From Dysosmobacter acutus (GTDB taxonomy: Bacteria; Bacillota; Clostridia; Oscillospirales; Oscillospiraceae), in assembly GCF_018919205.1 (NCBI RefSeq), contig NZ_JAHLQN010000001.1, forward strand, positions 558,001 to 622,000: DNA of 64,000 nt, read 5' to 3'. The first letter of the stretch is position 1, and the number at the start of each line of letters is the position of its first letter. The position numbers and the translations under genes are program-made. The notes beneath the pieces were generated by a model that worked only from the letters and a program-made list of their open reading frames with translations, was not told where the DNA came from and did not search any database. Positions 5,329 through 57,670 of the stretch are shown piece after piece.

Positions 5329-5363
5329 AAAAGACACGGAGCTTTCGCTCCGTGTCTTTTTCT
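5329..5363. terminator. Terminator after pta
   Basis: A 14-bp stem (AAAAGACACGGAGC / GCTCCGTGTCTTTT) with loop TTTC; T runs occur on both strands, so it can also stop the convergent XRE gene. Confidence 0.9.
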
Positions 5364-5371
5364 ATTGTACG

Positions 5372-5593
5372 TTACTTTCCTTTTGGATAAGGCGCTTTCT
5401 TATCGGTGCGGCCCAACAGATAATCCACGCTGGTGTGGTAGAAGTTAGCCAATACGATCAATTGTAGTGCCCCGATGTGCCTCTTCCCTTTTTCATACGC
5501 ACTATACGTTTTATAGCTGACACCCAGCAACTCAGCAACCTGTTTCTGACTCAAGCCCTTGTCAATCCTCGAATCCCGGATTCTTGAATACAT
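5372..5593 (-). CDS. Small XRE-family repressor (module 1)
   Basis: A 73-residue protein that is little more than one Cro/C1-type helix-turn-helix (SQKQVAELLGVSYKTYSAYEKG, about residues 15-36), a helix seen in the other two XRE genes (FYHTSVDYLLGRTD), and the tail PYPKGK. That tail and about 20 bases beyond the stop are also shared by the XRE gene at 18415. It is divergent from the 58-residue protein at 5688, and a dyad lies between them, which suggests that it represses that promoter and its own. The start chosen (5593) lies just after a hairpin containing its ribosome binding site; in-frame extension further upstream has no motif. The DNA is visibly lower in G+C than its neighbours, consistent with transfer. 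Confidence 0.8.
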   Translation of the reverse strand: MYSRIRDSRIDKGLSQKQVAELLGVSYKTYSAYEKGKRHIGALQLIVLANFYHTSVDYLLGRTDKKAPYPKGK

Positions 5594-5595
5594 CT

Positions 5596-5611
5596 GCCTC
5601 ACCCCTGAGGC
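5596..5611 (-). promoter_or_regulatory. Hairpin over the XRE ribosome binding site
   Basis: GCCTCA and TGAGGC form a perfect 6-bp stem with a 4-base loop, ending two bases before the ATG. The GGGGTGAGG ribosome binding site sits inside it, so folding would limit translation. The two related XRE genes at 18103 and 18415 also have a dyad at the start codon. Confidence 0.5.
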
Positions 5612-5642
5612 ATCATAACATATTTCTCTGTAGATTAACCTG

Positions 5643-5668
5643 ATTTTACTAATGAACGATAGTAAAAT
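5643..5668. promoter_or_regulatory. Candidate operator between the divergent pair
   Basis: ATTTTACT and AGTAAAAT are perfect inverted 8-mers separated by 10 bases, about 20 bases before the small gene. TTTACT and TATTTT, 17 bp apart within the same stretch, could be its promoter, so repressor bound here would block it. Confidence 0.5.
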
Positions 5669-5687
5669 ATTTTGTGAGGTGATAAAA

Positions 5688-5864
5688 ATGATCCCGTATA
5701 AAAAGATGTATGCTCTCTTAATGGGCGCGGTCTCCGATGCATCGGATTCCATAGACGCCGGAAATGCCTCTCAGGCCAGAAAACAGCTGCTGACCGCAGT
5801 AGACGGAATAGAAAACCTCTACATTGAAACCGCCTTGAGCATAGAAGACGCGCACGACGAATAA
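5688..5864 (+). CDS. Unnamed 58-residue helical protein (module 1)
   Basis: I do not recognise this protein. It starts MIPYKKMYALLMGAVSDA and has the pattern MYA..SDA..IDxGxxSxARxxL..A..ExLY, predicted to form two amphipathic helices with an acidic tail (EDAHDE). There is no signal peptide or membrane segment. A ribosome binding site GAGGTGAT stands 5 bases before the ATG. The copy at 17825-18001 differs by two residues (S/L and R/K), and a distant relative is at 57473. All three are divergent from a small DNA-binding protein. It could be a partner or antagonist of that regulator, or part of a toxin-antitoxin-like pair; the sequence alone does not decide. Confidence 0.7.
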   Translation: MIPYKKMYALLMGAVSDASDSIDAGNASQARKQLLTAVDGIENLYIETALSIEDAHDE

Positions 5865-5878
5865 CCGTCGTGCGCGTC
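5847..5878. terminator. Hairpin containing the stop codon of the small gene
   Basis: Perfect 13-bp arms (GACGCGCACGACG / CGTCGTGCGCGTC) enclose a 6-base loop holding the TAA stop. It lies between convergent genes and probably ends transcription of both; T runs are weak. Confidence 0.7.
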
Positions 5879-5881
5879 CCT

Positions 5882-7273
5882 CTATTTTCTCCGTCTGCGG
5901 CGGCCGTCCGCCGCCGCCACCACATACCCGGGCAGCATCGGCGCGCCGGAGCGCACCTTGCGGGGCTTGGGCGGCTCCGCCGCCGCGGCCTGGGGCCGCT
6001 CCTGGTCCCTGGCCCGCTCCGCCTTTGCGGGCTGCTCTTTCCCTGCGGTCCGCTCCGCCGAGGGCTTTGCCGCCCGTTTGGCCGTCCGCTCCGCCCGGGG
6101 AGGACGGGGCGGGCGCTCCGCCTTGGGCGTGGCCTCAAAGACCTCCATGGGATAGGGGTGGTCCGTCACCTCCGGCACCCGCTTGCCGATGAGCTTCTCA
6201 ATGTCCTTCAAATAGGCCAGCTCGTCAAAATTGCAGAAGCTCACCGCCACGCCGCCGTGGCCCGCCCGGCCCGTGCGGCCGATGCGGTGGACATAGGTCT
6301 CCGGCACGTTGGGCAGGTCGAAGTTGATGACGCAGGAGAGCTCGTTGATGTCGATGCCCCGGGCCGCGATGTCCGTGGCCACCAGCACCCGGCTCTCTCC
6401 GCTCTTAAAGCTCTCCAAAGCCTTGACCCGGGCGTTCTGGCTCTTGTTGCCGTGGATGGCCATGGTGGGAATCCCCTCCCGGCAAAGCTCCTTGGCCACC
6501 CGGTCGGCCCCGTGCTTGGTGGCCGTGAAGACCAGCACCGAATACCAGCCGTTCTCCCGCAGCAGGTGGATGAGAAGCCGCCGCTTGTTGGCCTTGTCCA
6601 CCTTGTAGAGGGACTGTTGGATGGCGTCCACAGTGGAGGACACGGGCGTCACCTCCACGGTGATGGGGTTTTTCAGAATCTGGCGGGTCAGCTTGACGAT
6701 CTCCTCCGGCATGGTGGCGGAGAAGAGCAGCGTCTGGCGCTGCTCCGGCAGGCGGGCAAGCACCTTGCGCACGTCGTGGATGAAGCCCATGTCCAACATC
6801 CGGTCCGCCTCGTCCAGGACAAAGCAGCTGATGTGGCTGAGGTCGATATGGCCCTGGTTACAGAGGTCGTTGAGCCGCCCCGGCGTGGCCACCAAGATGT
6901 CGGTGCCCTTTTGCAGGGCCCCCACCTGGGGCACCTGGCTGACGCCGCCGAAGATCACCGTGGTGATCAGGGGCAGGTACTTGCCGTAGTCGTCGAAACT
7001 CTCCTTGATCTGGAGGGCCAGCTCCCGGGTGGGCGTGAGGATCAGGGCCCGGATGGGCTTGTGGGTAAAGTTCTTCTCCCGGTGCAGGTGTTGGAGGATG
7101 GGGATGGCGAAGGCCGCCGTCTTGCCGGTGCCCGTCTGGGCGCAGCCGATCAGGTCCCGGCCGGTCAGCACCGGCGGGATGGCCTGGGCCTGGATGGGCG
7201 ACGGGGTTACGTAGCCCACATCGCGGACCGCCCGTTGAATCTCGGGCAGAAGGTGTAAGTCTTGAAAGGTCAT
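5882..7273 (-). CDS. DEAD-box ATP-dependent RNA helicase
   Basis: A 463-residue protein with all core helicase motifs: Q motif (FQDLHL...[10 protein letters not shown]), Walker A AQTGTGKT (about residues 45-52), [13 protein letters not shown] (about 153-156), [13 protein letters not shown] and [10 protein letters not shown]. The core is followed by a basic, Pro/Arg/Ala-rich tail of about 90 residues ending RRRRRK, typical of RhlE/CshA-type enzymes that unwind structured RNA in ribosome assembly or mRNA decay. AGGAAAAG precedes the ATG. It lies 55 bases after lepA on the same strand. The last 23 bases are duplicated at 17785-17807 as part of the inverted repeat. Confidence 0.92.

Positions 7274-13738: not shown

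Positions 13739-13739
<1 letters not shown>
12678..13739 (+). CDS. carA: Carbamoyl-phosphate synthase small (glutaminase) subunit
   Basis: A 353-residue class I glutamine amidotransferase. The nucleophile Cys lies in MFGICLGHQLTALA and the His-Glu pair in VQFHPEAC. The N-terminal CarA domain (FGAETDSVGELVFTTGMCGYLETLTDPSYCGQ) precedes the amidotransferase half. It supplies ammonia from glutamine to CarB for arginine and pyrimidine synthesis. The start at 12678 (MNKGYLVLADGQVFEG) has GGGAGAGGG upstream. Its stop overlaps the carB start (TAATG). Confidence 0.95.
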
Positions 13740-17764
<4,025 letters not shown>

Positions 17765-17810
17765 GGCGGCGCAAAACAGAAAAAGCCGCCGCAGACGGAG
17801 AAAATAAAGA

Positions 17811-17842
17811 GACGCGCACGACGGTTATTCGTCGTGCGCGTC
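17811..17842. terminator. Stop-codon hairpin, second copy
   Basis: Same 13-bp arms and 6-base loop as at 5847-5878, lying between the convergent carB-dapF and small genes. Confidence 0.7.
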
Positions 17843-18001
17843 TTCTATGCTCAAGGCGGTTTCAATGTAGAGGTTTTCTATTCCGTCTACTGCGGTCAGC
17901 AGCTGTTTTTTGGCCTGAGAGGCATTTCCAGCGTCTATGGAATCCAATGCATCGGAAACCGCGCCCATTAAGAGAGCATACATCTTTTTATACGGGATCA
18001 T
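17825..18001 (-). CDS. Unnamed 58-residue helical protein (module 2)
   Basis: The product is identical to the protein at 5688 except for Leu instead of Ser at residue 19 and Lys instead of Arg at residue 31. The ribosome binding site is identical, but the upstream control region differs completely from copy A: the match ends 14 bases before the start codon. It is divergent from a tandem pair of XRE genes, with a CACAATATTGT palindrome in between. So coding sequence and terminator were copied while the promoter and operator were replaced. Function is unknown. Confidence 0.7.
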   Translation of the reverse strand: MIPYKKMYALLMGAVSDALDSIDAGNASQAKKQLLTAVDGIENLYIETALSIEDAHDE

Positions 18002-18028
18002 TTTTATCACCTCACCATTTATACATTG

Positions 18029-18042
18029 CCACAATATTGTAG
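18029..18042. promoter_or_regulatory. Candidate operator CCACAATATTGTAG
   Basis: A 10-bp perfect palindrome ACAATATTGT lies between the small gene and the first XRE gene. A perfect 14-bp version occurs at 18341, upstream of the second XRE gene, in an aligned 52-base segment. Confidence 0.55.
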
Positions 18043-18068
18043 CACATTCAAATGTGATATGCAACAAA

Positions 18069-18104
18069 ATAGTAGCATTTACTTGTGAGGAGTGATGCTG
18101 CTAT
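18069..18104 (+). promoter_or_regulatory. Start-codon hairpin of the first tandem XRE gene
   Basis: ATAGTAGCAT pairs with ATGCTGCTAT across a 16-base loop. The GGAG ribosome binding site is in the loop and the first two bases of the ATG are in the stem. The paired gene at 18415 has the same fold with a compensating base-pair change. Confidence 0.55.
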
Positions 18105-18315
18105 GGTTTTTCAGCGGTTAGAAGATTTGAGAATAGATGCGGATAAGACGCAAGAAGACATCGCCAAAATACTGAATTGCAAAAGGGAAGTGTATCGGCG
18201 ATATGAAAAGGGAATTCAAGAAATACCAGTCTGGGCACTCATCAAACTGGCAGACTTCTACAAGACAAGCACGGACTATATTCTGGGCCTGACAAACAAG
18301 CGGGAGCAGGACTAA
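18103..18315 (+). CDS. Small XRE-family repressor (module 2, first)
   Basis: A 70-residue helix-turn-helix protein (KTQEDIAKILNCKREVYRRYEKG, then FYKTSTDYILGLTN). It is about 85% identical to the next gene and a more distant relative of the XRE protein at 5372. The start at 18103 matches the start of its paralogue; a GTG at 18085 would be in frame but breaks the alignment. G+C is about 40% in the first part, far below the flanking genes. Tandem near-copies may form heterodimers or recognise different operators. Confidence 0.82.
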   Translation: MVFQRLEDLRIDADKTQEDIAKILNCKREVYRRYEKGIQEIPVWALIKLADFYKTSTDYILGLTNKREQD

Positions 18316-18340
18316 AACAGAAGAAAAAGAACATAATACA

Positions 18341-18354
18341 CCACAATATTGTGG
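18341..18354. promoter_or_regulatory. Candidate operator CCACAATATTGTGG
   Basis: A perfect 14-bp palindrome 61 bases before the ATG of the second tandem XRE gene, equivalent in position to the one at 18029. Confidence 0.55.
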
Positions 18355-18380
18355 CATATTCAGACGCGAGATGCAACAAA

Positions 18381-18416
18381 ATAATAGCATTTCTCCATAA
18401 GGAGTGATGCTATTAT
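18381..18416 (+). promoter_or_regulatory. Start-codon hairpin of the second tandem XRE gene
   Basis: ATAATAGCAT pairs perfectly with ATGCTATTAT across a 16-base loop that holds AAGGAG. Compared with 18069-18104, a G-C pair has become A-T and a wobble pair has become Watson-Crick, so pairing is kept while sequence changes. Confidence 0.6.
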
Positions 18417-18639
18417 GGTTTTCCAGCGGTTAGAAGATTTAAGGATAGATGCGGATAAAACCCAAGAGGACATTGCTGATATACTGGATTGTAAAAGGGA
18501 AGTGTATCGGCGATATGAAAAGGGGATTCATGAAATACCAGTCTGGGCACTCATCAAACTGGCGAGCTTCTACAAGACAAGCACGGATTACATTTTGGGC
18601 CTGACGGATATTCAAGAGCCTTATCCAAAAGGGAAGTAA
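18415..18639 (+). CDS. Small XRE-family repressor (module 2, second)
   Basis: A 74-residue paralogue of the protein at 18103, with the same helix-turn-helix and DYILGLTD segment but a C-terminus ending EPYPKGK, like the XRE protein at 5372. The DNA match to that gene continues past the stop. The gene therefore looks like a mosaic: N-terminal part from a tandem duplication, 3' end shared with module 1. It ends at a strong terminator. The likely role is repression of its own promoter and of the divergent small gene. Confidence 0.82.
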   Translation: MVFQRLEDLRIDADKTQEDIADILDCKREVYRRYEKGIHEIPVWALIKLASFYKTSTDYILGLTDIQEPYPKGK

Positions 18640-57086: not shown

Positions 57087-57119
57087 AAAAGCCTCCGGCC
57101 AGCAGCCGGAGGCTTTTAT
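57087..57119. terminator. Terminator of the aromatic operon
   Basis: AAAAGCCTCCGGC and GCCGGAGGCTTTT arms with a 5-base loop; the T run overlaps the end of the convergent ribbon-helix-helix gene. Confidence 0.9.
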
Positions 57120-57283
57120 TCCACTTTGGACGATTGGAGATGACGGAGGTGATTGCGCAGCGCAATGTTGATGTAGCTGGAAAGCTGGCGGTCATCTTCA
57201 GCTGCCAGCTTGCGCAGCTGCTCTACCAGATCCTCATCCAACGTTACGCTGACTTTTACTTTAATCGGTTTCGTCTTGTACAT
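57116..57283 (-). CDS. Small ribbon-helix-helix protein (module 3)
   Basis: A 55-residue Arc/MetJ-type DNA-binding protein: a basic beta strand (PIKVKVSVTLDEDLV), then two helices (EQLRKLAAEDDRQLSSYINIALRNHLRHL). It binds DNA as a dimer in the family. The start at 57283 has GGGGTGATTGGG upstream; a longer frame to 57361 runs through the repeat array. It is divergent from the small protein at 57473, taking the place of the XRE proteins in the other two modules, and probably binds the 10-bp repeats in between. Confidence 0.8.
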   Translation of the reverse strand: MYKTKPIKVKVSVTLDEDLVEQLRKLAAEDDRQLSSYINIALRNHLRHLQSSKVE

Positions 57284-57316
57284 CCCAATCACCCCGGATT
57301 TAAAGTAGCACAATCT

Positions 57317-57344
57317 CCTATAAAATTCCGAGTTTTCCCACCAA
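57317..57344 (-). promoter_or_regulatory. Possible promoter of the ribbon-helix-helix gene
   Basis: TTGGTG and TATAGG are separated by 16 bp on the minus strand; the -35 lies in the first repeat unit. Confidence 0.45.
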
Positions 57345-57394
57345 TTCCCACAACCTGCCACAACTTGCCACCAAGTGTCACAAAGTGCTACCGC
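57335..57394 (+). repeat. Six tandem 10-bp repeats
   Basis: Six consecutive units follow at exact 10-base spacing: ttcCCACCAA, ttcCCACAAC, ctgCCACAAC, ttgCCACCAA, gtgTCACAAA and gtgCTACCGC, decaying towards the right. One unit per helical turn places all sites on one DNA face, as expected for an array of ribbon-helix-helix dimers. Confidence 0.8.
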
Positions 57395-57472: not shown

Positions 57473-57670
57473 GTGGACGAAATTTCTCTCATGTTCCGGG
57501 TGTATCTTGTAATGTATGCCACGGTTTGTTCAGGGGCCTCCGACGCAATTGAAGCGATAGACAAGGGCCAGCCCAGCAAGGCGAGGGCGATGCTGAAGGA
57601 CGCATTGGAGGAGGCGGAATCCCTTTACGTGAAGTTTGCTCCGGAGGAGCACAAGAAGAAGGGAGATTGA
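57473..57670 (+). CDS. Unnamed small helical protein (module 3)
   Basis: A protein of about 65 residues (59 if started at the internal ATG) aligning with the proteins at 5688 and 17825: over 43 residues from MYA onward 18 are identical, including SDA, IDxG, SxAR, ExLY. The C-terminus is charged (APEEHKKKGD). The start is uncertain: TTG at 57470 or GTG at 57473 follows AGGGCGG, and an ATG is at 57491. No function is known. Its partner here is a ribbon-helix-helix protein, which shows that the small protein stays constant while the DNA-binding partner changes. Confidence 0.65.
   Translation: MDEISLMFRVYLVMYATVCSGASDAIEAIDKGQPSKARAMLKDALEEAESLYVKFAPEEHKKKGD

Follow-up and report, generated by a model that had tools for sequence, protein, structure and literature searches.

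Why would one small gene occur repeatedly in a genome, back to back with DNA-binding proteins of different kinds? The question is raised by a 64,000-nt stretch of the Dysosmobacter acutus genome (contig NZ_JAHLQN010000001.1, positions 558,001 to 622,000; hereafter the window), in which a first-pass annotation had pointed to three small open reading frames (ORFs) of one family, each divergent from a gene for a putative XRE-type or ribbon-helix-helix (RHH) repressor. We refer to them as copies 1 to 3 (Table 1) and to the regulators by their first coordinate. Our analysis indicates that the small protein is constant and its switch interchangeable, a real pattern that extends well beyond the window. 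Such a module is probably a portable, self-regulated expression cassette, in which a repressed payload gene is joined to an exchangeable regulator. Sequence comparison and modelling establish the family, the pairing and its geometry, the overlap of putative operators with promoters, the exchange of partners, purifying selection and a predicted fold.

Pairing with divergent regulators

We collected 195 family members, 180 of which have at least 500 bp of upstream sequence. A divergent XRE or RHH gene was found within 500 bp in 124 of these 180 (69%), so that most homologues do have the divergent regulator that the first-pass annotation had expected of them. The other three neighbouring positions hold a regulator in 2/180 (same strand upstream), 0/178 and 4/178 cases, and the background rate in DNA further away is 0.0037 per 500 bp and strand. 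The geometry is tight, with a median start-to-start distance of 107 bp (5-95%: 86-158).

The partners fall into unrelated classes: 65 are XRE type 1, 33 XRE type 2, 16 RHH type a, 13 RHH type b and 1 RHH type c. They consist of a single DNA-binding domain with a median length of 70.5 aa, which leaves no room for an effector-binding domain. Pfam searches of 27 partners, taken from loci that had contributed no seeds to our hidden Markov models (HMMs), recovered HTH_3 in 18, HTH_26 in 14 and Arc in 2. About 30% of the members have no partner regulator at all, and RHH type b proteins occur without the small-protein family at 7 of 14 loci.

Exchange of regulators

The strongest indication that partners are replaced comes from pairs of closely related copies. 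Small proteins that are 80-82% identical have an XRE partner in one copy and an RHH partner in the other, with DNA similarity stopping at the ribosome-binding site. In one pair of loci (L066/L071), the small gene and 330 bp downstream are shared at 91% identity, and the regulator is an XRE of type 2 in one and an RHH protein in the other. The similarity ends 10 nt before the start codon; both loci adjoin what looks like the same host gene, which at L066 also lacks its end. Locus L160 carries two copies with 85% DNA identity, one paired with an RHH gene and the other with an XRE gene.

The same discontinuity is found within the window. The 177-nt genes of copies 1 and 2 show 4 differences, of which two are synonymous and two are not. 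The copies are 97.7% identical from the Shine-Dalgarno sequence on, and their XRE partners are 42% identical. The similarity stops at the Shine-Dalgarno sequence (5671) on one side and reaches to about 5904 on the other, including the final 20 nt or so of a DEAD-box gene. Since the shared segment carries this 3'-end remnant, the simplest account is that locus 1 was the source and copy 2 the product of the copying. Copy 3 is more distant from copy 1 (41% identity across 46 aa, E 5e-5), and ATG 57494 is its better start because the GTG at 57473, from which the first-pass annotation had read this otherwise genuine member, misfits the family N-terminus.

The tandem XREs at locus 2 are identical to each other at 61/70 positions and match XRE 5372 at only 29/69 and 35/73. 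The tails and 3' flanks of XRE 18415 and XRE 5372 are more alike than their other parts, which suggests mosaic exchange between these two genes. Taken together with the repeated switches between unrelated partner classes on a tree of the family, these observations bear out the earlier proposal of a constant small protein with a changing partner and operator.

Promoters and putative operators

A sigma-A-like promoter scoring at least 9/12 precedes the small gene in 92 of 128 paired modules, compared with 28 of 190 shuffled sequences. The best intergenic inverted repeat is significant (p<=0.05 against shuffles) in 49 of the 128, several being perfect 14+14 repeats. Among the 34 palindromes that could be tested, overlap with the promoter of the small gene is seen in 28. 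For copy 2, we identified by eye a promoter TTGCAT-17-TACAAT (18064 to 18036 on the minus strand, 8/12). Repression would be the natural reading of the overlap between operator and promoter, from which we infer the direction of control. The first-pass annotation had also placed the modules next to hairpins, and indeed a terminator lies behind each of copies 1 and 2, with its 5' arm formed in both cases by the last part of the coding sequence.

The small protein and its family

AlphaFold2 predicts copy 2 to be a two-helix hairpin (H4-23 and H27-57) with a predicted local distance difference test score of 93. Fold searches of solved and viral structures gave no confident relative, and sequence and fold searches of the PDB returned generic helical bundles only. 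The family profile, built from 23 members, has the consensus MxDYxKMYxLLFNAITDALxxLExGxxxxARxxLIxAQQxAEELYI. Pattern scans worked on a closer subset of sequences, a more distant alignment having diverged too far for them. Y8, L34 and E42 are nearly invariant, and F12, N13, T16, D17, Q38 and Y45 are strongly conserved. Position by position, the conservation profile of the 129 members that have a regulator hardly differs from that of the 60 that have none. Since this conserved surface is independent of the neighbouring DNA-binding fold, self-association or a common cellular target is an easier explanation for it than regulator binding.

The ratio of nonsynonymous to synonymous substitution rates (dN/dS) lies between 0.04 and 0.41 in 19 of 20 close pairs, and the small frame is therefore under purifying selection, as opposed to the ratio near 1 that the first-pass annotation had considered; values across distant pairs were saturated and not used.

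Profile searches detected the family in 125 of 300 genomes (42%) of the Oscillospiraceae and in 15 of 291 drawn from the class. The first-pass annotation had named no family for it; Pfam, NCBIfam, PHROGs and PADLOC gave nothing at cut-off, and we did not find it described in the open-access literature. Matches to YfdX and to PHROGs were rejected as local helix similarity.

Other members, mobility and RNA leaders

Three family members had been noted in the window. These stand, and the whole genome holds seven at E<1e-6, four of them outside the window. At contig position 485999 the divergent partner is an XRE of another type, at 2611364 an RHH protein of another type, and at 332608 there is no regulator. 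The remaining member (at 1753485) belongs to a fusion ORF (contig 1, ~1753260-1753650; L089:1282-1662), in which an N-terminal RHH domain is in frame with a C-terminal family domain, preceded by a perfect 16+16-bp inverted repeat (TTTATGATGCATTGCA/TGCAATGCATCATAAA). This fusion is the single case among the 195 members.

The suggestion of a spreading module gains from these seven copies and from another genome (G122) with 21 family matches, many at contig ends. The six loci examined there (L187, L191-L195) lie inside a dispersed repeat that is up to ~670 bp long, at 87-93% identity. Besides the small gene, the repeat contains a promoter-like site of its own and a terminator; we saw no transposase gene in it, and no regulator stands beside the copies. 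Elsewhere, members adjoin what look like conjugation genes (L126, L130), and one is placed at the end of a contig that is a genuine prophage (L029), the sole clear prophage-borne case seen. Most members are solitary, with host genes on both sides. Near several members (L306-L308, L099) we observed a recurrent repeat that reads as a spurious ORF (...APYYREARVTxAxRQTAC...), two copies of it flanking the small gene in inverted orientation at L307.

About 20 regulator-less members have instead a structured leader of ~115 nt with a terminator directly before the ribosome-binding site, a predicted RNA attenuator. The motif reads UUGGUAAAAAYGCA ... UUGUGUCGCAGCAA ... UGCGUUUUUC, followed by a terminator hairpin and U-run, and has no Rfam match. 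It was seen at L309-L368 and, for example, at L005:1355-1471(+), L118:301-411(-) and L128:1687-1797(-), and not in the genome of the window. It occurs in 35 of 200 genomes of the bacterial family and 66 of 245 of the class, with up to 15 matches per genome, upstream of many unrelated genes, often for lipoproteins and small proteins. It covaries strongly (99% of cells paired and 13 of 18 pairs changed on both sides, in an alignment fitted to the model), and an alternative pairing is possible between the 3' arm of the 5' hairpin and the UGCGUUUUU strand. We consider it a candidate unnamed cis-regulatory RNA.

The loci in the window

The window copies sit between housekeeping genes, in modules of lower G+C (0.46, 0.42 and 0.51 for copies 1 to 3, against 0.618 for the window), and Pfam HTH_3 and RHH_1 recover their neighbours as previously described (Table 1). 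Behind the phosphotransacetylase gene, gene order is not conserved in the genus, and an empty-site test there found no clean empty site; for the aminotransferase, the corresponding flank test turned up no close orthologue. In another species of the genus (L259), a different family member lies directly after the phosphotransacetylase gene and points the other way; operon ends at this place may be a favoured site. Elsewhere in the window, a 1341-aa ORF (13739-17764) appears by eye to fuse the carbamoyl-phosphate synthase large subunit to a following diaminopimelate epimerase.

Table 1. Features of the three modules, in window coordinates
Feature	Position	Strand	Remarks
Small protein, copy 1	5688..5864	+	58 aa, predicted helical hairpin; model from near-identical copy 2
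Putative XRE-type repressor, divergent partner of copy 1	5372..5593	-	HTH_3 E 2.2e-14; start-to-start 94 bp
Putative operator, inverted repeat ATTTTACTA-8-TAGTAAAAT	5643..5668	.	intergenic region of copy 1 and XRE
Intrinsic terminator of copy 1	5847..5878	+	last part of the small-gene coding sequence supplies the 5' arm
Putative bidirectional terminator, hairpin with A-run and T-run	5330..5362	.	between XRE gene and phosphotransacetylase gene; from sequence
Small protein, copy 2	17825..18001	-	97.7% DNA identity with copy 1; AlphaFold2-modelled copy
Putative XRE-type repressor, divergent partner of copy 2	18103..18315	+	HTH_3 E 1.6e-9
XRE tandem duplicate	18415..18639	+	185/213 nt identical to XRE 18103; Pfam HTH_3 E 9e-9
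Putative operator, palindrome TGCCACAATATTGTAGCA	18027..18044	.	overlaps putative -10 of copy 2
Second palindrome copy (TGCCACAATATTGTAGCA-type)	18335..18360	.	before tandem XRE
Intrinsic terminator of copy 2	17810..17843	-	
Segment common to loci of copies 1 and 2	17785..18016	-	matches 5671-5904, ~233 bp; holds DEAD-box gene 3'-end remnant
Small protein, copy 3	57494..57670	+	alternative GTG start 57473; 71 bits with family profile
Putative RHH repressor, divergent partner of copy 3	57116..57286	-	RHH_1 E 1.5e-4; Arc-like repressor PHROG E 1.4e-6
Putative RHH operator array, about six 10-bp direct repeats (TTCCCACCAA-like)	57335..57394	.	
Promoter-like site TTTAAA-16-TAAAAT	57299..57326	+	directly before repeat array; one found, 1.0 expected in shuffles

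Discussion

We propose that a helical-hairpin protein of about 55 residues is transcribed from its own promoter, often up to its own terminator, and that the divergent single-domain protein would bind operators in the shared intergenic region of about 100 bp, repressing the small gene and probably also itself. An inducing signal would free the repressor. In evolution, the small protein is kept, and the repressor with its putative operator is the exchangeable unit, breaking at the ribosome-binding site. Replacement has brought in regulators of unrelated types, several of them XRE and three RHH, and, in other lineages, an RNA attenuator leader. The small protein itself would be the effector, acting via a conserved face (Y8, F12, N13, T16, D17, Q38, E42, Y45), either as a homo-oligomer or through binding to a target that all these bacteria have in common, and not to its neighbour. 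We prefer such a stand-alone effector, with a conserved target, to an antagonist of the neighbour. A further step, that these modules form a new class of mobile payload-constant cassette, with one effector family, a conserved cellular target and repeatedly recruited local switches (XRE, RHH, RNA attenuator, fused RHH domain), each copy answering a different signal, is a possibility that we put forward only tentatively.

Several points weigh against the cassette. The RHH fusion suggests that small protein and regulator are physical partners in that case at least. In addition, partner classes cluster on the tree more than expected by chance: a quick tree of the small protein requires at least 36 changes of class (shuffled mean 54), and 16 changes between helix-turn-helix and RHH partners (shuffled 26). 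We give more weight to the single pairs, because the branches are weakly supported on ~50 columns; one of those pairs involves L066, which could be a chimeric contig, and many of the loci are metagenome contigs. Fewer than half of the modules have a significant palindrome, and RHH modules seldom do. Finally, the partner HMMs were seeded partly from the scored loci, although the comparison positions were scored by the same HMMs, and the close-pair counts include related genomes.

Alternatively, the small protein could antagonise its divergent DNA-binding neighbour or act as its co-regulator, in the manner of SinI or of an anti-repressor, which would make the pair a bistable two-component switch and the fusion its one-chain form. 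SinI of Bacillus binds a C-terminal domain of SinR. The likeness is apparent in the combination of an XRE regulator with a helical-hairpin protein of ~57 aa, the predicted hairpin resembling SinI in kind, and the tight pairing and geometry, as well as the RHH domain fused to the family domain behind its perfect inverted repeat, would suit physical partners. However, the partners here are of unrelated folds and lack anything beyond the DNA-binding domain, including a second domain of the type bound by SinI, and SinR/SinI is not known to have RHH versions. Moreover, the conserved residues are the same with or without a regulator, near-identical small proteins face partners with 42% identity or with a different fold, about 30% of members have no partner, and the fusion remains a single case. 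The first-pass annotation had offered a regulator antagonist as one option; with one fusion for it and partner-independent conservation against it, we regard it as rather unlikely.

The cassette also differs from the two other systems that had been considered. In the published type II toxin-antitoxin network, the two antitoxin classes that act as hubs are XRE and RHH (PMC2701414). The modules have further traits in common with such systems: they consist of two small genes, one of them for a putative autorepressor of the XRE or RHH kind, they combine one constant protein with partners of changing class, and they occur in multiple copies in a genome, with a patchy distribution. A small toxin neutralised by its DNA-binding neighbour is nevertheless very improbable. 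Toxin-antitoxin genes form an operon, and here the regulator is divergent in 124/180 cases and upstream on the same strand in 2/180, so there is no co-transcribed operon. The partners are bare DNA-binding domains without a neutralising tail, many members, including repeat copies of one genome, have no adjoining regulator, and the small protein is unrelated to any toxin family and has no PADLOC match. The XRE-DUF397 pairs of Streptomyces (Scr1/Scr2) were likewise first proposed to be toxin-antitoxin systems, and the tested pair did not behave so (PMC6262351). They resemble the present modules in pairing an XRE protein with a small protein that does not bind DNA, but there the small gene follows the XRE gene, the regulator is always an XRE and both proteins are needed together (PMC6262351). 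The protein family and phylum differ as well, and DUF397 had no Pfam match in 23 members. The toxin-antitoxin proposal of the first-pass annotation is not upheld.

As for a domesticated phage immunity region, in which an XRE repressor would face a divergent early phage protein, the nearest matches of the window XREs are phage-type repressors (phrog_8 E 1e-21; the NCBIfam RstR family, 3e-12, falls below cut-off). Like our modules, the CI/Cro and RstR-type regions have divergent promoters, both covered by operators, together with a small XRE repressor, and the prophage-borne member and the two beside conjugation-like genes fit this origin. On the other hand, only one of the two products here binds DNA, unlike CI and Cro, and its class changes to RHH or RNA. 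The small protein has weak matches to PHROGs and none to a named one, and most members are found singly among host genes. The apparent phage matches (MT838774, MT837744, MT837348) are unannotated scaffolds that look bacterial, and we set them aside. We consider the domesticated phage switch that had been suggested earlier improbable for the family, in which one clear prophage-borne member was seen.

Returning to the preferred reading of a repressed payload with an exchangeable switch, these findings define an unrecognised protein family present in 42% of the sampled genomes of one gut-bacterial family. Searches for toxin-antitoxin-like modules that are limited to operons would miss divergent modules of this kind. 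The same gene, often near-identical, is found under unrelated putative repressors, which offers a clean natural experiment in regulator replacement and makes it testable whether such pairs are physical partners or just a switch and its payload.
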